Positions 9,036 through 59,300 of a stretch of DNA of 64,000 nucleotides are shown in pieces (positions within the stretch are counted from its first letter, which is position 1; each line of letters starts with the position of its first letter). Source of the stretch: Colius striatus (taxonomy: Eukaryota > Chordata > Aves > Coliiformes > Coliidae). A program made the position numbers and the translations under genes. The stretch covers positions 90,020,889-90,084,888 of the forward strand of contig NC_084759.1 in the NCBI RefSeq assembly GCF_028858725.1, read 5' to 3'. The notes under the pieces are model-generated. The model was not told the DNA's origin, did no database searches, and saw only the letters and a list, made by a program, of their open reading frames with translations.

Positions 9036-9041
9036 TTTATT
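9036..9041 (-). terminator. GATD3: Possible GATD3 polyadenylation signal (AATAAA)
   Basis: This AATAAA on the minus strand lies about 850 nt downstream of the GATD3 stop and is a plausible 3' UTR end. Another AATAAA (9890-9895) overlaps the stop codon itself; it would give an almost absent 3' UTR and is less likely. The sequence alone cannot decide. Confidence 0.35.
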
Positions 9042-9890: not shown

Positions 9891-12800
9891 TTATTTGCCA
9901 GTTAATTTTAGCACATTCTTTACCATGGCCCCAATGCCATCAAAGATATGATGTAGTTCTGTCTCACACATAAATGCCGGTGTAGTCACCACCTTGTTTT
10001 TTGCATCCACGTGAGCTTCGTAAAAAGGAGTTAAGGAAACCACAGCCTACATCTCACTTGCACATGCTCTCTGCAAAAACAACTGTCATTGACAGAGCCT
10101 TACAACTCCATTACCCTATAAAAAAGCACCTCCAAATATATTACACCTTCCAGCTGTAAAGACAGCTGAGATCTATAATCCAAAATACTTGAAGCTATTT
10201 TTGCCAGAAAGACAAACGCTGCAAAGGGAATCTGTGGGGACACTCAAGAAACACAAGAAAACCTATGAAATTTACTGACTGGAATAAAATATCTCTGAAT
10301 TACAGTGTTAGCCTTCAGGAAAAGAAAAAAAAAACCATCTCAAGGAGAACTGACCAGTTTTAACTCTTGACAAGGGGTAATGGGATGAAGCTGGAACACA
10401 AAAAGGCCCATTTAAACCTAAGAAAAAAACTATTTAACTGTGAGGGTGAGGGAGCCCTGGCACAGGCTGCCCAGGGAGGGTGCGGAGTCTCCTTCCTTGG
10501 AGGTCTTCAAGAACCACCTGGACACATTCCTGGGCAACCTGATCTAGGTGGACCTGTTTCTGCAGGGGGATTGGACCAGATGATCTCTAGAGGTCCCTTC
10601 CAACCTCTACCATTCTATGATTCTATGGCAGTTTTATGTGCAAATTCACTCAGCATTTACTGCATTACTGGGTGTCCAAAGGAGTTCTACGGCAATAACT
10701 GAGAAGTTCTCACTACACAGCTGTGTACAGATGACAACGTTTCTAATCACGCACTGCAGTATGTTCTGTGCTATCTGCTGTAGATTGCATCCTCCCACTA
10801 AACTGTAAGTGGAAAAGCATAGATCCTGCATTATTTGGTACTGCAACAACACATTATTAAACTGTCTCTCAACAAGAAAATTCACAGGAAAGGATATGGT
10901 TACTTCTTTCACACAATGCTTTCCTCCCAGTTCTTTAATGGCTCCTGCAGTTCCAGCGTAAGGCCACTTGCCACCTTCCTCTTCTTCATGGCCCACAGTT
11001 ACTTCAGCACCAGAGAGAACCTTTGCAGCCAACACTGGTGAGATGCAGCAAAGTCTGTAACAAAAAGAAACGTAAGAGCAATTCTGCAATGGCACTCTTT
11101 CAAAACTCAATCATAACTGAAAAGATTAAAATGGACACAGTCTTGCAAGTGTAAAAGACACCACAAGACAACTTTCACTCAGTATTTTCTTAGCCTTTTC
11201 TATGCCAAACACATGCATTTTGAAAAACAGAATCATAGAATGGTAAGGGTTGGAAGGGACCTTTAGAGATCATTTAGTCCAACCCCTAAATACGTTTCAA
11301 AAAATAAGCTACAACTGATACAGAACAGAACAGGCTTTTTCAAATTCCAACAATGACAGCAGCACAATTCCACAAAACATACTTTGTCCCCATGCTCACG
11401 CTATCAAATAAATGCCTCTGCAACTAACATACATACCCAATAGGTTTCCCTGCTTTGTGGAAGTCCTTCAAGACACGTTCAACTTCTCTGTTCACTTTGC
11501 AATCCTTCCCATCAACAGCAAAGGTAGATCTGCCACAACAAGAAACTTTATACATACTCAGTATAAACTTACCAAGAAAGATGCCTATCTGCCCTGAGAC
11601 TGGCTCTCAAGAGTCATCACAAACTCAACAGCTTCTAAAAGGTGGTTGGAAATGCCAGTAGTTGACCACCAATGCTTTAAACCAAAATGACTCATTTCTA
11701 AGGCTCTAGTACATCAGGAAGTTCCTTATGTGGCATAAACATCTAGAAATAAGAATTATCAAATCAGCTTTCTAAGATTACTAGGAAGTGGAACAACAAT
11801 GTTCTCAAAGAAGAAAAATATGTAACAAGAGGGTAATAATGTGCAGATTTCTCAAAGCCAACAAAATGGCAGGTCACTAAGTAAATAATCAGCACAAACT
11901 AACACTTTTTATCCCCCATCTTTTTGAGCTGGCTTTACCATTACTACTACTCACTTTGAGCTAGTTTTATCCTTACTAATGCAAGAGGGGACTTTTTAGT
12001 AGGCAGACATGAAGAAAAAGAATAATAATGCTAAGAGCACCTGAATCTATTGAAGTTTTACCTTTGCTTCCCCCCATTAGGCACAAAAGGAATCTCCCAC
12101 AAGGGTTCATTGTGCATTATCTTAACTCCAGAATTCTCACCAACATTGTTTGGAAAATTTAAGATGTGACAATGCCAAGAAGAATTATGACTGGAAATAA
12201 CTGTGAACAGCACAACTTAACTCCAACACCTACAAAGTTTTTCCTACTAAGTAGTGGTTATGTATATAGCAAACAAGGCCATTTATTGCTTCCTGATTTG
12301 ATTGTGTGCATCACAGTTGATGATGAATAGCTAATCAAGATTATTTCCTTGAGGAGTCTAACGCTTACTTGGTACTTACAGGTTTTTAGCAGCTCCAAAT
12401 CCACCAGGGAATATCACAGCATCATGGTCTGCTGTAGTAAGCTTAGCCAGACTTGCAATTTTACCACGAGCAATCCTTGCAGATTCTACTAAAACGTTCC
12501 TTGAAGAAACAGAAATAAAATAGTAAGATGAATTAAGCATTTGTGCACAGAAGAGCATAAAGAAAGTTCTTGCAGAGGAAGAGGATGAGGAAGAAGGGAG
12601 GAAGCAAGAAGAACAGTGGTGCTCAGTAACTGAAGCTATCAGTGCTTCTGAAACACTGTTACTGGGAAAACAGGTATTTAAGAGACTATATTCAAGTCTG
12701 GAAAACTCATTTAACATTTTCTCTCCAATCAAAACACCATCTAACAAAGCCAGCAGGGAAAGCGCTGAAAGTGCAGTTACAGGCTCCTGTGTCTGAAGGA

Positions 12801-15800
12801 TGCTTAAGAGACTGAGGCTCAGCAGTCACGGAAAACACATTAAGCACAGACTTTACCTTGACTCAGCTTCAGCTGGTTGCCCTTTAGTGTGGTCAATGAC
12901 ATGCATCTGAGGAACATCCGGAGCGTACATCTGAACCTCAGCTCCCCCACGACTAAGGTGGACCAGTATGCTACAAAAAACAGAGACAAAATGTGATGAA
13001 AACCTTAGAAAAGAGATACTATCTGGCCCCCAAGTCTTGCTACAGACATTCCACTGCCTGGTTTTGAAAGGAAAACCACACATCCTACCAAAGCATACAG
13101 AGCATATAGCAGCAAGATCCTTGTACATAATACCAAAGCACAAAGCATAAGAGAAAGTCAGTCTGAAGGCAGGGTCAGGTAAACACTAGAGACACGTTTC
13201 TTTGTTCAGTGCTCTTATGCAGGTAACCAATAGCAATAAAAACTTCCCATTGCAAGGTCCCAGGTGTTAACAGAAGAGTCCCATGATTAACACACCTCTG
13301 TGTACATTTAATCCAGGTCTAGGTGAAACACCTCTTAGCAATTAACCTAAGAGTTAATAATTCAGCTTCAGCATTAACATTTTTTAGCACTAGTTTTAGC
13401 CCCAGGAACAGAAGCTCAAAGTGACTACAAAATGAAGTCTTTACTTAACTTTCCTGAGATCGACTCTAGAACTCTGAATTTTTGTTTCTGAAACCTCAAA
13501 TCTCAGTCTTTCTCAAACTCACTGCTCTGCCACTGCGTGTGTTGTGATGCATTTTTGTAGAGCCACCGAGTACTACAAGAATGCAGCCTGAGCTCCCCAA
13601 TTATGCCGAGAGAAAATTGTGAAGCTGCATCTTTCAGGGCAATCCTGATGGCCAAGAGAGAGCAAAACTAAATTCTACAGGCTGCTGTCATGTAAAGGTG
13701 ACCTTTTGGGAGCCTATAGTTTCATAAAGTAACTTACGCTGAGGCCTCGTGGATTTCTGTGCCATCATAGACACCACAACCAGATAGGACCTGCAGTAAG
13801 GAAATCAAAAGAGTATTTCAAGTGAAACAAAACTTCCTAAGGATCTTTAACAAGCCTGGTAAGGTTTAATAAAATCCCCCGAAATAAACAACATAAAACC
13901 GATAAACCTTCCTCCACCCCCCTCAGCAACAAGGTCTTTACTAAGCCAGTCAACACTGGCTTAGTATTAGCAACTGCTGTCACCATTTGACATACTGCAG
14001 AAATGGCATTTCCTATTTATAGCTACCCATCACAAATAGGTCTCAGGAAGAACTTATATTTATTTATTAGCTTGTGTATTTACTCCTCAGAGTTAATATC
14101 CTGATATGATATCCTTAGGTATGTTTTTTACTGTGTACACAATGGGTTATTGCAAGCATCATATGTCTATTTACGAAGGGTCTGTATTCCGTGTGAAATA
14201 CCTTCTCATCCAAATGCACATCACACAGAAGTGGGACAAAAGTGCACTTCGAGGCTGCACTTGGGAGAAACTACTTTACCTGCTGCTGCATTCTGTCCGA
14301 GGATGCACATCAGAGATCTATACCTAAATCACTTCTAATCCAAAGACACTACATTAGCCAGACTTTTCCTTATTACCAGGGCAATACACTTCCAGTTTGT
14401 TTATGCACAGTGAAGAATTAAAAGCATAAAGCAATCAATTGTCCATGTGTGGGTGGAGAGGGTCTTTCACAAAGTAGAAGCATGCTACTGGGTTTTTAAA
14501 AAACCCAGGAGAAACGGTGGTTATAAGAACAAAACAAAACCTCAAAAATCCAAAGGATTACCTAGTTCCTGAAAGCGTATCTGTGAACTCTAGGGGGGCT
14601 TTTTTTTTTGGTTGGTTGTTTTTAACAAAAAAAAAAAAACAGTTAACGAGAATCCATGTATTGACTTTCTTTTCTCATGGTTTTATATGTTTTTAGAAGC
14701 TTGGAAGTTTTTAATCGTAGACACATGAACAGAAACTCTTAACTGAAACTCTTCATTAGACGTGAAGGGGCTTTCAGATCACAACACCAAGTCCTCTGCT
14801 CTCACAGGTATGATTAGAAGGGCTGTGGGCAGTAAGTCGAGAGAGGATCTCCTGCCCCTCTACTCTGCCCTCATGAGACCACATCTGGAATACTGTGTCC
14901 AATTCTGGGCCCTTAAGTTCAAGAAGGACAGGGAGCTGCTGGAGAGAGTTCGATGCAGGGCCACAAAGATGATGGAGTGGAGCATCTCCCTTATGATGAA
15001 AGGCTGAGGGAGCTGGGGCTTCGAGGAGACTGAGGGGTAACTTCATTAATGTTTACAAGTATGTAAAGGGTGGGTGTCAGGAGGATGGAGCCAGACTGTG
15101 CTCAGTGATGTCCAATGACAGGACAAGTGGCAATGGGTATAAACTGGAACATAAGAGGTTCCAAAGAAACACAAAGAAAAACTTCTTCACTGCGAGAGTG
15201 AAGGTGCACTGGAACAGGCTGCCCAGATGGATTGTGGAGTCTCCTCTGAAGAGATTCAAGACCCACCTGGATGAGCTCCTGTGTGGCTTACTCTAGCTGG
15301 TCCTGCTCTTGCAAGGGGGTTGAACTAGATGATCTTTTGAGGTTCCTTCCAATCCTTAAGATTCTGTGATTCTGTAAGATCCATGAATATCCTATCCATG
15401 GTTAATCCCAACTACAATTTCACTGCTCTGATATTTAAGAGCTGCCTTATACTTTCCAACTTTTTATTTAATCTTTCATTTAACTTAGATTGATTACACA
15501 AACATACAAGCAATAGTGCTAGAACTATCTTCTATAAGCAACACTTTTAAAATATTTTTGAAACTCACTGAAACTGAAGTATTAAAACACTATACCCTTC
15601 TCTTATTTCAGTACCTGCTTTATGACAAGCCTGTTTTCTACCATAGCTGGAAAATTATGTCACTAATCTCAACAGTAAAATTTGTTTTCCACTCTCTATT
15701 TGCTAAAATGACAGCATTCCAGGTAAATTACCTTTTAGACATTTGGACTAGCATTCTGCCCAGTCCTGAACCAAAAAGATTTCTTCATGCAGGTGGCGCC

Positions 15801-17055
15801 TTCTTAATTCTTACGCTGTCAAGACAGCAATGTTCAAGCTTCAAAGACTGTCCACCGAGCTCCAGTGTATCCACTTGCGATTCTAGATAACAGCCTAAGC
15901 TTTCCTTTGGCAACCTGTAGCTCCTTCTCTTCGCTTTATATTCTGAACATGCTCTATCTGCTATGCAGAAGGGCATCATCCAGTTTGAATATTTTCCTGT
16001 TCTCGTGGTTTCAGTGGGATAATTTTCTTCCTAGTAGCTGGTAGTGCCATGTTTTGGGTTTAGTGTGAGAATACTATAGATAACACACTGAAATTTTAGT
16101 TGTTGCTGAGCAGTCCTTACAAGCGCTTTTCAGCCTCTCAGCCTGCCTTGCCAGCACGGAGGCCAGCAAGAAGCTGGGAAGGAGTGTGGCCAGAACAGCT
16201 GACTTGAACTAGCTAAAGGGCTATCCCTTACCACAGAACGTCATGCTCAGTATACAAACTGGGGAACGCTGGCCGAGGGCTGCAGCTTGGGAAGCAGCTG
16301 GGCACTGACTGGTGAGCAATCGCACTGTGCACCACTTGTTTAGTACATTCTAATTCCATTATTATTATTATTGTTCTCTCGTCCTTTTTTGTCCTTTCAA
16401 ACTGTTTACCTCAATCCACAAAAGCTACTGCTGTGTTTCTGTCTTTCTCCCCCATGCTGCTGGGGGCGGGGCGAATGCGCAGCGTCGGGGAGCTCGGCCG
16501 CCTGCCTACCTGATTAAACCAGGACGCCTCTATGTGTCCGTGCCTTAGGTCCTTAGAACTCCACTCCGGCCCGGTCACAACTACGCCGATGCCAGTTTTT
16601 ACATGTTTCCCACTGCTGGTCCAGCTTCCTGCAAGTTCTACACAGCTTTATGTCCTCTACTTCTGCTTCTCCCAAGGCTTTAGAGCTGCCGCTGCCACCA
16701 GGCGGGTCTCTGCGAGGCCTGAAGCCACGCCAAACCCTCCCACCCCCACCAGCCCGTACCGCCGTAGCCACCCCGGCTGCACAGGCGCCTTTCCGCCAGC
16801 ACAGTACTGAGGGTGGACGGGCACAGACAGGCAATTTCTCATGACATTTCTCCTCGGAGCTGCTCCTTGTGCTGTCCCGGCCCCCCACTTCCCTCAACCT
16901 TCCAACCTCCGCGGCCTCCTCCCGGCGCGGCCGCCACTCACCACAGCGACGCGGGCGGCACGAAGGCGCCGAGCGGAGCAGTGAAAGGAGGCGAGGTGGC
17001 CCGGCGCTGCCCGTCGGAGCGCGGTGCACAGCGCAGGGCGGCAGGAAGCCAGCAT
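9891..17055 (-). CDS. GATD3: GATD3 (ES1/C21orf33 homologue), mitochondrial DJ-1/PfpI-like protein, 7 coding exons, complete
   Basis: Coding exons in transcript order: 17055-16942, 13790-13738, 12970-12857, 12499-12380, 11529-11437, 11054-10898, 10019-9891. They join to 780 nt (259 residues plus TAA), close to the human protein (about 268). Residues 1-38 (exon 1) are rich in Arg, Ala and Ser with no acidic residue, as expected of a mitochondrial presequence; the ATG is the first in frame inside the CpG island. Recognisable family blocks are [14 protein letters not shown] (exon 2), [17 protein letters not shown] (exon 3), [12 protein letters not shown] (exon 4), and [14 protein letters not shown] followed by [19 protein letters not shown] (exons 5-6). 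The Cys pair near residues 167-168 sits at the nucleophile elbow of the class I glutamine amidotransferase-like fold; I infer Cys168 is the elbow Cys. The bacterial relative is ElbB. The exact reaction in animals is unsettled. All introns are U2-type GT-AG except the last, which is AT-AC U12-type. No frameshift or stop is seen. Confidence 0.96.
10020..10897 (-). other. GATD3: U12-type AT-AC (minor spliceosome) intron of GATD3
   Basis: The last GATD3 intron cannot be joined in frame with a GT-AG pair. After the codons for HCVKEVT the intron starts ATATCCTTT, the exact AT-AC U12 5' splice consensus, and it ends TTTTTAC just before GAAGCTCACGTG (EAHV). The branch-site motif TTCCTTAAC, a perfect U12 branch consensus, lies at 10030-10038, so the branch adenosine is about 11-12 nt from the intron end. 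The phase is 0 on both sides and the join restores the conserved family sequence. A CR1 fragment (10365-10627) is inserted in it. Confidence 0.95.
10365..10627 (+). mobile_element. CR1 LINE 3' fragment inside the GATD3 AT-AC intron
   Basis: Antisense to GATD3. It begins in the GACAAGGGGTAATGGGATGA block and ends ATTCTATGATTCTATGG. It is clear of both U12 splice signals. Confidence 0.92.
11229..11288 (-). mobile_element. Short CR1 3' tail in a GATD3 intron
   Basis: AGAATCATAGAATGGTAAGG then TTGGAAGGGACC, the reverse complement of a CR1 end; lies in the intron between GATD3 coding exons 5 and 6. Confidence 0.85.
14800..15377 (+). mobile_element. CR1 LINE 3' fragment in GATD3 intron 1
   Basis: ORF2 end ([20 protein letters not shown] encoded near 14853-14912) plus 3' UTR, ending ATTCTGTGATTCTGTAAG. 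This tail type (ATTCTGTG rather than ATTCTATG) is shared with the copy at 50325-50694. Confidence 0.92.
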
Positions 17056-19883: not shown

Positions 19884-22800
19884 CTAGGAACTAGAACTGC
19901 CTTTATGAGCTTCTTGCATAAGGTAATCACTGTCAGAATCCAAGTCTTCTTCATCTACTGATGTTTCTTCTGCCAGACGTTTCATGCCCCGCTGTTGGGA
20001 AATGGCCAACGCGTATTTAATATTGTAGATATTCCATTCACAGCTGTAAAAATTAGACAGAAACATGTTAGAAACTTGATTCCATTTTCCTCCTAAAATA
20101 AAAATACCCCTAAAAGACCCTCTCAAAAGCTCTAATACCACAGTATCATCCCCCAAATTATTCCGCGCTTTTGTGCAGGGTTTCGATTTAACCTTTAAAA
20201 CACTAACAATACATACAGTTTGGAAACATCTTCAAAATGCCGCTGGATGCTTTTCTGAAGGAACTGAATCACGGGGAGCAGCTTCACTGACCTTGAATGG
20301 AGAGAAACGTGCAATTTGCTGTGTAATTTTCACACACATATGGAGATCTAGAACTTTTCTATATTCTCAACATTTTAATAAGCACACTTCCTAACTTTTC
20401 AACATGAATGTTTTAAGATGATACTAATTAAACAAAAACTATTTGCTTTGACTCTGCCCTGAATTTTTATACTCAAGTAATATGTTGCCAGAAATTATTT
20501 CTTCTAATGTCAAACTGCAGCTTGAAGACCTAATTCTGCTTGCTGTAGTGCTACAGCTCCTTCCAGACACTACAATACTTTCTGAATAAGGAAGAGTTTG
20601 TTTTAAATCATCCTCTTCCACTTTAACAGCAACAAGAGGAGAAAATTTACTCCAGTTGTTTCAGTAACTAAAACATTAATACTCATGTTGAAGCAAGGAA
20701 AGAGTTACACAATGTACTTGGTCTAACTCCCAGTACTCCTCCTTTGATTACCTCTCAGCAAATTTGTAAATTTGCAAATTTTGTTCCCAAAGGTCTATGA
20801 ACTCTAGACTAAAGGTGGGCTGAATGTAATTCACTATGTAGTTTTAAAGAACTATGTAGAAAAGCAGAGTACTGAAAAAGTGAGCGAGTACTATAACCAC
20901 AAGCCAAGTCTATAAAAATACAGTCAGTACCTCCACACTATCTTTCAGTTGTATTTTATATGAATAATGGTTTAAAAGCACTATTGCCAAAATCCTATCA
21001 GGCTTGAAATCTTGATGTGTTTATAGGCTAAGCAAGCCATTCAAAGTTTCTCCTGTAATATTTGAAAAATCTTTTTGCTGTTTGTCCATACAAATTCTAT
21101 TATGCATTCCAATTCTATCACAGACACTAGTTAGAATCATAGAATCATTTATGCTGGAAAAGACCTTTAAGAGCATCAAGTCCAAACCATTACTTTTACC
21201 ATTAGTAAAGAAGTTGTAAAAATTGTTTTAATTGTTGCGTATGCATTATCTAGAATGTTAGGAAATGTTAAGTAAAAACCTTAAACTGACAGGTAAATAC
21301 ATTTTAAAATGTTTGCCAACACTGACTTCTGCAAGATCTCACCTTGTTTTCAGTTTCTGTCCATGCAGCATGAGCAACTTATGAGTCCAAATAAGATAGA
21401 ACTCTAAATGACAAGATGTCTCAAATGCAGAGGCCAGGAACTCCAATACTTTCTCCACGTACAGGTCTGGGAGTGATGAGCAGACAACATCAACTGTGCA
21501 AAAAGGGAGGAAAAAAAAGCCCATGGACTTCAGAGTTGAATTACTATTTGGAATAACAGGAAAGCGTATGGGGAAGAAGAAAGCATTGTCTTGGCAGCTA
21601 CTTCATATTGTATTTCAGGGTTCAGTACCACAGTCTCTCAGAAGGCAAGTCCTTCCAATCATTACTGTATTTAAAAGCAAGAACTTAACCCCTCCTTGTT
21701 CCCAAGTTCTTCTTCCTAATACAATACTCTCCCCAAGAGCTCTCCTTCAGAACTTTTACTTCTACCCTTTCCTTCTCTTTTGGTGTAACTTAACTTGCTT
21801 TTGACTGTACATGAACTTCTGTGTTCAGTGGGACTGGCTAACTGTAATCATCAGAGGCAATAAAGGATACTTGAAAAGACTGCAAAGGCCCCTGCTCACA
21901 GAGGAAGTGTCTGAATGCTGTTACCAACTGCGCAGCCCCACTGGCCTATGAACTGGCCTATGTAACATTCAACCGTGATTTGTTCTGTGAACAATGGATT
22001 ACAATGCCTGAAATTTTCATGTCTCTGCCTCTGCTCCTGAGGTTTTGGTGCCTGCCTGCTTACCTAAGCCTTGCCTGTGTACACAGAGTTTTGGTTAATT
22101 TCAGGAAAGAGAACTAAGTTTTGCTTGACAGAGGCAAACACCATTATGCCAACACAGGTATGTAAAAGATGATTTCCCCCAACATGCATAATTATCAGGC
22201 TTGCTACCTAGGGAATAAAATCATAGAATAAGGTAAGAAAATCCTACAAAGCAGTTGGCTTGCAACATAGGTCTGATTTCAGACTAGAGCATGTTTTGAC
22301 TAGATAAAAGAAATTTGTTAACACAGGAAACACTGGAAGGAAAGAAATACTTTTCACTGGGGTAACAACAGTGAGGTAAGGCTAAGAACTTGTACTTTAA
22401 AGTTAGTACAATGGAAGTGTTAATGGAGTTATGAAGTTAAGTGGAATACACTACTGGCAGTTCATTTTTCAGGTTGTATTTACCATATGCAGCTACGAAT
22501 GTGCACTTTAATTATCAAAATTATGAAAAGGGTGCTAAAGAATGGCTTCAGTACATGTCCTCCAAAGCTAAGTGACATCCTACCTCTTTCTTTTGTTTCT
22601 GAATTTACAACTGTGAAAGCACCTGTCTCTCATTAGAAAGAGATACTTAACTAATAATTTGTTTGGCTTGTGCGAACACATTGACATTTGTTTAGAGGGA
22701 TGAATTTAACAAACCCTATAACTAAAGGAACATAAATAATCAGAATTTCTGACAGTTGCAGAGTTGCTCCAAATTCTGGCATTCCAAAGCAAGACTACTT

Positions 22801-25800
22801 TAGAGTAGCTGGTACAGAGATTTATCCAGTTGAACGTGGAACATTTTCAAGGATGGAGACTGTACTACCTCCTTTGCTAACCTGCTGCAACAAGAGCAAC
22901 TCCCAAGTCTGCTTTTGCCTTCTTTCTAACATCTCATTAGGCTCTTGAAGACAGTAAAAATACACCACCTCTATTCTAAAGGTGGGCAGAACAATCCCAG
23001 CTCTCTTAAGCTTCTCCTCAGCTGTCATGCACTCTGGCCCTCTAATCATTTTCCAATCCCTTCACCAGACAGTTCAGAGTATCAATGTCTTTCTTGTACT
23101 ACCATGCCCCAAACCAGGCACAGCACTCCTGATGTGGTCTCACAAGTGCTCAATATAGAAAAATAATCACCTTCCTTAAACCTCTGACTATATCCTTGAT
23201 AGTACAGCCCAGTATGTGGTTAACTGCCTTCCTCACAGAGGCACACTGCTAACTCGTGTTAAATTTCCTTTGCCCCTCTAACATCAACTGCTTCTGAGAA
23301 CTGACATTCAAAAAAACCCCACTTTACCTGCATATCCAGACCTGATCAAATTGCATGTTCAAAAGTCACTAGATGAACATGCAGTAGAGACTGATAATAT
23401 TAAAACATAAGGTAACACTAAAAAGCCTACATTGTTTATGGAAGACTATCCCTTCCTCTGTAGTCTTCAGCTATAGTAGGAAGTCTTTAAATACCAATGT
23501 TATCCCCACTCCCTCACCACAGGAGCTAAAGTCTGTGCTTTACTCCTCAACTTACCTGACTTACACATCTCTGCTTACAGCTAGCTCAGCCAAATCTCAT
23601 GGAGAAGCCACTCACCTTCATCGCTAGGTACAGTCTCTATAACCTCTTGAATTAATTTCTTTTCATTCAGCTTGAAGGCCATGATGATAGCCATCGTGTA
23701 TTCCTTCTGATTCAGTGTTTTGTGTATATTGCTGGGTGTGACATCAATATCCAAGTCAAAAGGGTCAAAAAGTAGCCCAGAGTCCAGTGAGTAGATAAGA
23801 AGACCCTCTGTGGTGGTGGCAGCCCAGCTTCGTCCTAGAAGAGAAGTAACAGTATTTAAGAACAAAGTAGGTTTTTCTAGGATAGAAACAGAAGCGTAAT
23901 GATAAACAGGTAACTTAACTTTTTACAAGATCAAGTGGTTAAGCCATGCATCACTGATGGACCTGACAGTAAGGACCATGACTCTAAAAAATATCAGCTG
24001 AAAGTGATGTTCACTTAAGTTTCCTAATTATCCACCGCATGAGAAACTAGATCACAAACCCAGCAGCACTATGTAACATCTGGAGAGACCAAGACCATCT
24101 CCAGTGTATCTGTACTTCATTATTACTCCTCCAATGCTCTATTTTTTAATCTCTTTTATCTGGAATAAAAAAAATCCTATGTGAATTCTCAATACTCACC
24201 CGTAGGAGAGAATTGCAGACAAGTCACTCTTATTTCTGGTTTAAAGTGTCGATAACTCATGTCACCTAAAAGAGAAGTTTAGAAGTAATTTAATCTGTTC
24301 ACCAAAAGTCCATGGTCTAGCTATCAACTCTAACTACGCTGTTATCATTAAACTGAAAAATAATGCAGAACACACCAAAACCCAGCAGAGTTAAAGATGA
24401 GGTAAATAAGGGACAGGCCATGTCCAAAAGATCCTACAGATGAAGCGCAGGGACTGAATTTTGCTCTTTGAAAATTAATTCAGGACTGTTGAGTTCCCTA
24501 TCCAGGAGGCCACAATATCTCCTGTTTCCTGTTGCTTCCACTATCCCAAGCAAAAGGATCCATCCATACATCAGCTAAACACTTGTGTAACAGATCCCTG
24601 CAGCTGCAGAACATGCAGGTAGCCCTAACTTTAAAACTGCGCTGAACAATTCAAACCCTTTTTAGCCGGTATTTTCATCAAAGGGTTTGATTCACATAAA
24701 ACTAGTAGAAAGACAAGACAGACAAGCGCCATACCTCTTTTTACTCCAGGAAGAGGAATGGCAACACCATCTTCACCTCCACCTCCTTCATCAATCAGAG
24801 CCAGGCTGCCAAATTCAGTCATTTTTCTCCGATCTAAGTACTCCTAGGAAAACATGTAAGTTCTATTTAATGCACTGAAACACCTCTCAAACATCTGTAT
24901 TAACTGAAAGCTCTCAGAATCACAGAATGGTAGGGTTGGAAGAGACCTTTAGAGATCATCTAGTCCAACCCCTCTGCAGAAGCAGGTTCACCTAGATCAG
25001 GTCACATAGGAACATGTCCAGGCAGGTCCTGAAGACCTCCAAAGAAGGAGATTCCACAACCCCTCTGGGCAGCCTGTGCCACTGCTCCCTCACCCTCACA
25101 GTAAAATAGGTTTTTCTTATATTTAAGTGGAACTTTTTGTGTTCCAGCTTCATCTCATTACCCCTTGTCCTGTTCCTAGCTACTATAGAAAAAAGTAGGA
25201 GTTATTTAGTGATTATTTCCAAAAGCTCGACACAAATTGTGAGAAAACTGACAAAACAGCAGAAGACTTGAAACAGCCTGATTCTGAGGCTCAACACCTC
25301 AGAACAGCAAGACTCAATTTACCCTGTGGTTTCAAGCTATTATAATGATGTTCTACTTAAGGGATACACTGTTTCCCCAGATGCAGCCCTACTCTTCCAC
25401 CCCTTCAGGTTCCATAACTAATGTAAGTAAGAAAGGGCTGGGTAGCCAGACAGCTATGCAAATGATGTTTTATGGACCTCTCTGCCCCTCATTTTTAAGT
25501 ACACATACTCTCCAGGCTTCTTTTCCAAATGGCTCATTTCTAGTGTCCCTTTAAGCCACATCTTGTGCTACAATAGCACAAGAGAGGGCAGCACAGAATG
25601 ATGGCTGCTTCCCAAACCACTGTTGTCAAAGAAGCACACTTGAAATCACAGTCAAATACAGCCTGACATGAACACTGGAACAATCATCATTCTTACAGGT
25701 AAGAGGACGTTAAAAAAAAGTTACTGTTTTTTTTTCCCTTCTGATGCTTTTCATAATTTCCTTCTAAGAAATTTAATTTTCCATTTGGCAATACTCAGAA

Positions 25801-34800: not shown

Positions 34801-37800
34801 GTGTACAGCTGGAATGCAAACACACAAGGCAACCATTATCATGCAATACCCATGTTTGCACTCTGCTGTCTTATTATGAACAATGAATTGCAGAAGGGTT
34901 AAGCAGGTCTGCACTCTAACATTAGGATATTATTATAACTTATTATTATAACTTAGTCCTCTAGAATTCAAACTGCTTTGATCTGGAAAATTCACTTCTC
35001 CTGAGAACCAATTATTTACTTATCTCATTAATATTTACAAACATCTAAATGACAGATGTTAGGAGGTCGGGGCATCACTTTTTTTCTGTTGTATTCAGTG
35101 ATAGGACAAGGGGTAATGGAAAAAAGCTGGAACATACAAAGTTACATTTAAACATAAGGAAAAACTATTTCGCTCTATGGATGGATGAGGGAGCCCAGGC
35201 ACAGGCTGCCCAGAGAGGGTGTGGAGTCTCCTTCTCTGGAGGTTTTCAAAATCCACCTGGACATGTTCCTCTGCAACTTGATCGAGGTGGACTTGTTTTT
35301 AGCAGGGAGGTTGGACTAGATATCTCTAGAGGTCCCTTCCAACCCCTACCATTCTGTGACTCTATGATACTTTACCAGATAACTTTTGAGAAGATCGAAG
35401 GCAAAGTGATTATCAGCTGTCTTTACAGTTAATAATTCTTTCCTATATAAAATTATAACTTTTTTGTGGAGCAATTTTAAATAACTTGCTAGCCTTCTAA
35501 AGTCTGCTTCTTCAAACATCCATGGAATTGTAAAGTCCCAAACACAGTAGGAGTCAAGAGACGTATTACATACTGGTTAAATTCTGAGATTATCAAAATA
35601 GCTAGCATCCTTTCCTACAAGTAAGATTCTCCTTGTACTATTTTAATATTATAATTCAAGAATGTTGTGTGATTATACATACATCTAGACTGTTCTCTTC
35701 AAAAAAGCAGGCTACTATTACATCCTTATGCCCTCCAAGTGAGTAGTAGATCAAGTTTGCCCATCGTTCTGCTCCAAACACCCATGTAGACATGTCCTTG
35801 CTCCCTACTGCAAAACATCTATGAAAGAAAAGGTAATTTTTTATATTAGAACACTGGTTTGCAATACTCTTCCCTAAGTGGAGAAGATTTTGAGTGGGGA
35901 AACACCAGTCATCAGTTCCAAAGAAATTTTACAAACAGTGGAGTTGTAAACCAAGGTTGGCAACTTTACTAAAGGCAGATGAGATTAAATACATTTGAAA
36001 GGTCAACCATGCTTATATTCCTAAGACATGTTCCTTTTAAGGATAACTAGGCATTTTCATGTAAGATCCATTGTTGACTGCACATGTACATTTTATACTT
36101 CCAGTCCAGTTCTTATGTTCAAGACAGAACGAGAAACAGAAGAGCCCAAAAAGAATTTTTAAAGCTAGTACAATATTTTAGATGAAAGAAAATAAGACCA
36201 AAACATGCACAGAAATAATAGCAACACGAGCAGGTAAACAGTGCTTTAGTTTAACAACTCACTTGGAATCATCAGTCCAGTCAATACAAGTTGTTTCATC
36301 ATATGGACCGTAGTAAGTTTTGTCCAGGACAAATGCATTAAACTCTCTTTTCCTCCCAGGAGCATGGTACATAAGAGCAACATTGTCTTTTGTAATCACA
36401 AATTTCCTGTCATAATGGGGGCAAAAAAGCATAATTGCATACAAAGCTGTTAAAGCAAACAATTTTTCAGTACAGACTACAATACAACAAAAGAAAACAA
36501 TACTAAGAAGGTTTCTGCATTACTGAAATGGTAAATATCAATTGCTTTTGAATAAAAAACAAAACGTTATTTGCAGATTGATACCGGCCCCCAACTTACG
36601 TATCTTAAGAGAGACAACTTTCAGTAAAAAAAAAAAAATCACTGAAGTTGATTGCCTTAATTCTCACAAAGAAAGGAACAGTTTCAAACATTCAAAAGAG
36701 GATACTGTATTTCAGCCCCTCTTCACCTCCACTTTCAGAAACACCAAGCATCTGCATCCCAGTTATACATATCCTTTAGTCTAGACCTGTTGCCAGTATA
36801 ATTCCCTAACAGAGAACTGGGATTCCAGCTTTCCAGTTAAAACTCCTTCAAGATCACTTTGAGTCATCCCAAGTGAAGAATGTTGCCAACTGTGCACTTT
36901 TTCCTCTTGCCTTTGTGGTTCTAACGTTTATATCATCGCACTTTGGATATGTGATCATGCAATTAAATTATAAGGGATGTGAAAAGTAGCGCTCAATTCA
37001 ACAAACTGCCTCTTTCAGTGGCACTGTTGTTTCAGACAAATTACATGTAAGAACAACTTATACGTAAGAACAGTTAAGACTCACAGCAAATCTTCTGTCT
37101 TTCTAGGAATTCCACCACAGACAATATCTGTGACAGGCAATTTTCCTGCTAGCATCTGTTTCCAAGGCTTTGCTTTTCCCTTTTGCTTCCCTTCTCACTT
37201 TTACAGGTAACCCTGATAAGCTCAAAATCTTCCCTTTTTAATCAATAGGTACCATCCCCAGATTGGTCAGAATACCTTAATGATTACACCTAGTTTACAG
37301 GTTACTTTCTGTTGTTTTGCTCTAAAACATACACATTTTACTTACTTGCCATCAGGGGAAAAGCTGACACTGTGAACTGGCTTGTGAAAATAAAAGCGAT
37401 GTATCACACATTTCCCAATCAAACTGACAAGTAAGGCAGCTCCCTCTGTAAGTGCACAAAAAGAAGGATCATGGAAATACAGAGCTCCCAAAGAAACCAT
37501 AATCCTAGCAGGTTTATTTTCTTTCTTTAAAGCTGTAGGGGAAAAAGCACCTCCTCAGAAACTTTTCAAGGCAGCGTGCTTAACATCAGTAATAAGAAAA
37601 TTACAATCAAAGTCACTATTTAAACTCCATAAATAAGTTCTGTAAAGAAATTCACCATTCCCAGAAATTCTCACATAATTTTTAAAGCAGAGCACATTTG
37701 ATTTATATTAAAGTTGAATACTTAGCAATAAGTTTTCCCCCTCTTACACTGCCTTCACTCATTTCATTTTTTTAATAAAACAAATGCCTCCTTAAGGAAA

Positions 37801-56300: not shown

Positions 56301-59300
56301 TAAGTTTTGGAAGGTTGACTCAAATGATTGCAAATAGGAGAGTCACCTGTATGTTTTAGCACAAAGACAACAGTCTTCTTTCTAATGAAATGTAACTCTC
56401 TAGACTTATATGAAAAAGACACAAAGGGAATGGCATCACTCAAGCTGTCATAGGAAGCGATACAGCTACCACTTGCCAGCACTATGCTTTTCCTCAGCCA
56501 GTGCTTTTAGTTATTCGTCCATAAGCGTTATGTTCTTTCAACTAGAAAAACATACCTGAGTATTGAATGTTATTTTATTGACCCCTGGTTCCAGTATTAA
56601 GTTGTTGCATTTCAACACATGAGCTCCATCTTCTAAAGTCACCCCGGAGGACATATCCAGAGAACTGCTGCTTTCTTGCCTTCGTAGTAGCATGTGCACA
56701 TTTTTGCAGATAATTCCTGCTGTATTCAAAGAGTTATCTGAGGGACTTCGTTCATACATTTCATATAGTTCCAGTGCTGGCAAATTATTTCTTGACACAG
56801 GAAAGCCTGTAACTTCATTTGGAAAGCTGATAACACCATTGGAAGTTTTGTGCTTAGTGAGCCACTCAGCTGTTTTTCTGTAACTATTTTTTTCAATGCT
56901 GAAGTGAACATGGATAGCCATCTGATCCACTTGGACAGGGATAGGCATCTGGCTCAGCAAAGTCAACTCAATAGACAACTTTCCACCCACATGGACAACG
57001 GCATTTGGAGGGTCGAAATGTAGAGTTTTCAACTGTGCAAAGGAATGCATAGGCAATGTAACTTTTTGACCTGGAAAGATAAATACAGGGATTTTATTCT
57101 CCAGTGCTGCTGGAGACCAGCAAATCTTTTCTCTTAAAAATGTAACCCCTACAATTAAACAGATCAACAAGTTTTCACAATTAATCCTTTCATAATAAAT
57201 CAATACATAGTTTAGATTTATCTTGCATAGAAATGAGACATAAAAGATGCTGAGATTTGTTTTCTAAGTTAAATCTACTACCATTCTAGTACTTGTGCTA
57301 CTAAAGAGAACTAAAACAAGAGATTGTGTCTAAGCAGAAGTTTAACATTTCACTACTACATAAAGTGTTCTAGACAGAGTAGCATAAAGTGACAAACTTC
57401 CCAGAGCATATATATTATGAGCAGTACAAGCTTAAGAAACTAATGATCGGACTGGTGCCTTGAGCCATCAGATTTACATACCATACAAGGATTTCTCATT
57501 CTCTTTTCTAGATTCTAAAAACCAACACTGAGGCAGTATCAAAAGTTAAATAAGAAGTACGCATTACTTATAGTACATCCAACAATCAAGAAAAACTTCT
57601 GCATAAAAATGAACCGTCCTCAGATCTACAGAAGTATTTGGTATGAATTTCAATTATGATCAATATCTGAGGACAAGGGATTATTGAAGCACCAGGAAGA
57701 ATAAAGAGGAAGAATAAAGAGAAGAGGTAGGATGGTCAAAACAATAAGCTGCAAGTGGAGGGGAACAGAGCTAACATCAAAAGAAGTATCACCACAGAGC
57801 TGACATCTACATGCCAGCAATGTAGTGACAAAGTTAAGTTAGGAACTGAAAAAAATCCAACACAAGAGACACTACGAGCTATCAAAACAAAGAAACAGGT
57901 AACTGAAGGAAAACAAAGTATTGAGTAGTAGTTTTACAAATGTTCTGGAGATGATGGTGGTCCTGCTCTGGCATGGGGGTTGGACTAGATCATCTTTCAA
58001 GGTCCCTTCTAACTTTTAAGATTCTGTGATTCTACAACAAGGAAAGAACCATGTTGGTTCAGAAGTTACACACAAGGTAACAAAACAATCAGATCAAGCC
58101 TTCCAATCTACTTTAGGGAAAGATCAGATTTAAGCAGCTAAAGTTTTAAGTATTTAAGAACCAGACTTACCTTGATTCTCCACCTGCTGATTGGCAAAAT
58201 CCAGTATTTCTTGGCAAAAGCTTTTGCGTTCATCTTCTGACAAGTGATTATCACCAGCTAAAAGGCTGCTTGTTTGAAGATAACTAATGAAGTTAAGGAA
58301 ACATGAAGTAGAAACCTACAACATTCAGAAATTTGGCTGAAAACAAGACAGTTCAAGTACTGCTTTTCTAATATTTTAATACAAGACCTGTTTTTATCAT
58401 CACCACACTCTTCCATTAGAAAATAAATGTATAAGAGATTTGTAAGAATTCTGCAGAATCTCAGTCTTTTCAGAACTAAATAACTTATTTACCAATTTTC
58501 TTGGCTGAGAATCTGCCAGTTGTTACAGAATCATTTACCATAACTAAGTCAGATGACATTCTTTATACTTTTAAGCATTGGCGATACAAACACTCATTTA
58601 AGTATTTAGCCAAGGCTGCAATATTACTGGCTCAGATTCTTTAAAAGCATTTCTACTGAAGCAGAAATACGTAAGTGTTTAAAAGTGATGTAAGGATTTT
58701 CAAAGGAGGCAGGCACTTAAAATGACCAAGTCTAATTCTATAAAAACACCAAACAAAGACAACACCACAAAAGATACACTGCAAATTTGAATTTTGCTCA
58801 ATTGATTTTCAGCTACAGTAAGATTCCTAGTATTGTCACTTAGAGACTAAAATACAGGTTGCTTAGGCAAATTAAAAACCAAACAAACAAACCCAACAAC
58901 TTTTAAAAAACACCACTCAAATAAAGCTGTCTTTTCTTGCAATTTCCACAAGAACTGTCCTGCAGAAAGTACTTGGGTCAGCTGATCATCCCAGTTTGGA
59001 ACACTTAGGGGAATTCCATTTATAACTATAGTACCAATGAAAGCAGTACTCTTCCTAAAAACATAAAAAGTAACATAAGCTCAACATTTTGCTATAGTGC
59101 ATAATATCCTGTGTACAGCAACAGTTCAGATTAGAACCACGTTATTTAATTTAACTACCAAATTTAGGCAATAATATATAAGACTACAGTGAAAAGTAGA
59201 ATTCAAATTGTTCTTTTTCTAATGCCAAAAAGAATACAACAAAACACCCAAGACCAGTCAGCAGCATCTTCCTCACACATACTCATCTTGAAAATAGCAA

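Follow-up and report, generated by a model that had tools for sequence, protein, structure and literature searches.

A U12-type AT-AC intron, assigned from sequence, as the last coding intron of GATD3/ES1 in Colius striatus

In the 64,000-nucleotide stretch of Colius striatus DNA analyzed here (the window), intron 6 of the avian GATD3/ES1 gene, its last coding intron, is almost certainly genuine and, with its AT-AC ends, a member of the U12 (minor-spliceosome) class. It covers positions 10020..10897 on the minus strand (878 nt, phase 0), as delimited by sequence and protein alignment. A preliminary description of this DNA had given the same coordinates, phase, and AT and AC termini, all of which we recovered by direct reading and by script. 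The AT-AC join fixes the C-terminal exon of GATD3 here, and a gene model restricted to GT-AG introns would lose or distort this exon.

The gene is complete in the window, with seven exons encoding 259 codons and a stop, and its coding parts run from 17055 to 9891 on the minus strand. In our gene model the coding part of exon 1 starts at the ATG (16942..17055) and is followed by exon 2 (13738..13790), exon 3 (12857..12970), exon 4 (12380..12499), exon 5 (11437..11529), and exon 6 (10898..11054), whose last residues are VKEVT. The coding part of exon 7 (9891..10019), placed by the gene model and protein alignments, runs from EAHVD to LTGK and the stop codon. Introns 1-5 are all GT-AG, leaving intron 6 as the only AT-AC intron of the gene. 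The spliced protein scored 272.9 bits against the NCBIfam family NF008747 (ElbB), for which the curated cut-off is 180 bits, and the whole protein is thus a member of this family. By this match, which spans residues 34-257, the bird protein is alike to the GATD3A/ES1/ElbB proteins. The score against Pfam DJ-1/PfpI is 27.1, marginally over the cut-off of 26.6. Four ElbB/SCRP-27A/Es1-type sequences in PDB also matched, as did 17 bacterial relatives. Alignments to the PDB sequences start at residues 32-34 of the bird protein, and those to bacterial proteins at residues 33-36 in 15 of the 17 cases and at residues 15 and 18 in the remaining two. The N-terminal extension that precedes the matched part would fit a mitochondrial protein. 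The bird protein has nine extra residues when compared with 16 of the 17 bacterial relatives and seven when compared with the other one. The family and PDB matches and the seven-exon model bear out the gene identity, strand, and exon number of the preliminary description.

Exon 7 codes for histidines 220, 240, and 241 of the bird protein. Human GATD3A is described as a mitochondrial deglycase with His251 as a catalytic candidate (PMC8935817), and the position of this human residue probably falls within the part encoded by exon 7. At the end of the gene, an AATAAA motif (9895-9890, minus strand) overlaps the stop codon (CAAATAAAAAAAATC), and the 891 bases 3' of the stop contain one other AATAAA or ATTAAA motif, at 9041. 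Upstream of GATD3 and on the same strand, we observed reading frames corresponding to the C-terminal part of PWP2 (19884-23922, minus strand). Once these pieces were joined by hand, their best match was PDB 7mq8, 'Periodic tryptophan protein 2 homolog' (E 5.4e-61), which we take to be the human protein. Presumably, PWP2 also adjoins GATD3 in human 21q22.3, in the same order as in the bird window.

The borders of intron 6 can be read directly on the minus strand. Exon 6 ends with ...GTG AAA GAA GTA ACC, its last base being 10898, and the intron starts with ATATCCTTTCCTG at 10897 and ends with ...TTTCCTTAACTCCTTTTTAC at 10020, the terminal AC (10020..10021) being found both by eye and by script. 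The longer 3' stretch of the intron reads TGGTTTCCTTAACTCCTTTTTAC and is followed by GAA GCT CAC GTG... on the same strand. Exon 7 opens with GAAGCTCACGTG at 10019, from where the frame continues to a TAA stop whose last base is 9891. The published signals of U12 introns are ATATCCTT at the 5' site and TCCTTAAC located 10-15 bases upstream of the junction (PMC3488318), and intron 6 has both in full. Its 5' splice site, ATATCCTTT (10889..10897, minus strand), contains ATATCCTT, and its branch site, TTCCTTAAC (10030..10038, minus strand), lies 10 nt upstream of exon 7, inside the published range and exactly where the preliminary description had placed it. The base at +5 is a C. With the 5'-site and branch signals both complete and a C at +5, the intron fits the U12 rather than the U2 class, in support of the assignment made previously. 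A CR1-like interspersed repeat (10369..10627) makes up around 30% of the intron. It has at least 15 matches elsewhere in the window; among the 15 matches listed, nine have at least 237 bases, with 72-87% identity. Repeats of the CR1 kind, the family that we assume here, fit a bird genome.

The strongest evidence for the AT-AC join is the alignment of bacterial and PDB relatives across the junction, which is independent of the splice signals. All 17 bacterial relatives, two of which (L011 and L012) are almost identical in this region, align with no gap within eight residues of the bird junction between VKEVT and EAHVD, and the terminal AC falls on the border that this homology defines. The four PDB relatives also align across the junction without a gap. 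Bacterial genes lack spliceosomal introns, and the 17 bacterial loci read through the point where the bird gene is split. We then enumerated all splice pairs with donors in 11000-10791 and acceptors in 10130-9921, resulting in 852 pairs (225 GT-AG, 150 GC-AG, 132 AT-AC, 180 AT-AG, and 165 GT-AC). The C-terminal frame was kept by 152 of them, and a single pair, the AT-AC pair 10897/10020, gave exactly the gap-free protein; as the reference protein was the AT-AC product itself, this count adds precision and not independent proof. Among the 375 GT-AG and GC-AG pairs, 40 kept the C-terminal frame, and four of these lost no residue while inserting 13, 17, 24, or 42. These four joins are all GT-AG and all use the acceptor 10047. 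The earlier claim that no GT-AG pair joins the exons with their conserved residues was thus too strong, but the AT-AC conclusion stands.

In a rival reading, the major spliceosome would use a GT-AG pair, e.g., donor 10885 with acceptor 10047, and add 13 residues between VKEVT and EAHVD. This join is in frame and keeps every conserved residue, as do the three others with 17, 24, and 42 added residues. We nevertheless consider it very unlikely, because such an insertion is absent in all 17 bacterial and all four PDB relatives and because both U12 motifs at the intron borders would be left unexplained. By eye, donor 10885 (CCT/GTGAATTT) has no G at -1 or +5, and acceptor 10047 is preceded by a purine-rich stretch. 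Donor 10798 (TTTA/GTGGGAGG) does have a G at +5, but its use would imply 42 extra residues. Less probable still is that the major spliceosome removes the intron as one of the U2-type AT-AC class. Introns of this type occur in sodium-channel genes, where all have a G at +5 (PMC2831892), whereas the GATD3 intron has a C at this position together with full U12 5' and branch signals.

It is just as improbable that the locus is a pseudogene or an assembly error where the signals arose by accident. The only observation that we found in its favor is the frequency of the motifs, which taken singly are around chance level. In the window, ATATCCTTT occurs twice, including a copy at 36769 (+), for a mean of 0.91 in shuffled sequences (at least two copies in 23 of 100 shuffles). 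The pattern TTCCTTAAC-N8-13-AC occurs once, for a mean of 0.39 (at least one in 33 of 100 shuffles). Either motif alone is therefore unremarkable, and the copy at 36769 remains inside the chance expectation. Other U12-like motifs in the window are GTATCCTTT at 21870 (-) and TTCCTTAAC at 58300 (-); neither these two nor the copy at 36769 could be linked to a border of the exons that we modelled. A scan of the whole window with Rfam at gathering thresholds gave no matches. The probability that both motifs are jointly placed at the borders by chance is about 2e-8, a rough product of the shuffle means computed over 128,000 positions with 31 positions allowed per end. That both motifs sit precisely where reading frame and protein homology set the borders is not due to chance. 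Furthermore, the frame of 259 codons is intact across all seven exons, the splice sites are regular, the family match is strong, and PWP2-like exons adjoin the gene on the same strand, all of which speak against a pseudogene or an assembly error.

From established knowledge on minor introns, splicing of the U12-type intron 6 would proceed with U11 pairing with ATATCCTTT and U12 with TTCCTTAAC, before U6atac takes over from U11. The branch point would be one of two A residues, at 10032 or 10031, as either of the two in the branch consensus is usable (PMC3584512). Exon 6 would then be joined to exon 7 at 10898/10019, a join expected to provide the DJ-1/PfpI-type protein with its final 42 residues. 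Retention of the intron would let the frame run for 83 other residues up to a stop ending at 10646, thereby replacing the normal C-terminus (these last 42 residues). Since there is no exon junction 3' of this stop, the intron-retaining transcript might escape junction-dependent decay.

If GATD3 goes back to a bacterial gene, which would have had no spliceosomal introns, the minor intron post-dates the transfer. A published tree has eukaryotic GATD3A nested in bacterial proteins, and the authors of this tree favor a lateral transfer at an early date, with GATD3A present in Tetrahymena, Reticulomyxa, and Naegleria (PMC8935817). The transfer seems to date back as far as the main eukaryotic groups, so that the intron may match other minor introns in age. 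Bacterial descent alone does not make intron 6 a recent gain. An insertion later than the last common eukaryotic ancestor, directly as a U12-type intron, seems to us unlikely. If true, it would represent a datable minor-intron gain. Gains of this kind have been considered very rare, but 55 candidate events are put forward in one study (PMC6865273).

In a tree of bird GATD3 and the 17 bacterial proteins, a biased sample since they were found by short patterns of the bird protein, the bird sequence is on an open fork, and no donor is supported. Six of the 17 loci (L003, L004, L010, L013, L014, and L016; three of them metagenome-assembled) are homologues from Roseospira, Rhodospira, and Rhodospirillum. 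All six are labelled Rhodospirillaceae, and the NCBI taxonomy lists Roseospira and Rhodospira trueperi among the Alphaproteobacteria. The six loci are at odds with the claim in the literature that alphaproteobacteria have no GATD3A (PMC8935817). In our tree the six form one clade (100/100) with the bird outside, although the fork that parts them has no more than 82/81 support. As this clade does not group with the bird, it does not show a mitochondrial origin of the gene.

Intron 6 has probably been catalogued already in orthologues. The U12 intron list that Burge and colleagues published in 1998 reportedly includes GT335, which we take to be an old human name of GATD3. Our search of article texts returned nothing linking GT335, C21orf33, or GATD3A with the terms U12, AT-AC, or minor intron. 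Likewise, C21orf33 and GATD3 had no occurrences in the searched texts of minor-intron papers; as lists of U12 introns are found in supplementary tables, the absence says little. The emphasis that the preliminary description put on the rarity of AT-AC introns is justified in part: the rarity is real, but it is modest, as they make up around 22-26% of the human and mouse minor introns in the figures taken from two sources (PMC6717393, PMC10639083). CENATAC was reported to promote the splicing of AT-AN minor introns (PMC8280824), and since intron 6 is AT-AC, we predict that it should depend on this protein.

The interest of intron 6 lies in being a clean phase-0 AT-AC case, in the last coding position of a gene of bacterial descent. 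It shares with AT-AC introns of the U12 type the termini, the 5' signal, the branch signal, the distance from branch site to exon, and the C at +5. With sodium-channel AT-AC introns of the U2 type, it has the termini in common, but it differs by the C instead of a G at +5. Minor introns tend to avoid phase 0, which accounts for around 22% of them on average (PMC10639083), whereas intron 6 is in phase 0. U12 introns, above all the conserved ones, cluster in the 5' parts of genes (PMC2426677, PMC3488318), whereas this one is the last coding intron. A phase-0 AT-AC intron close to the 3' end of a gene is thus less common, yet ordinary, and intron 6 of GATD3 adds a further case to a well-known type of intron.
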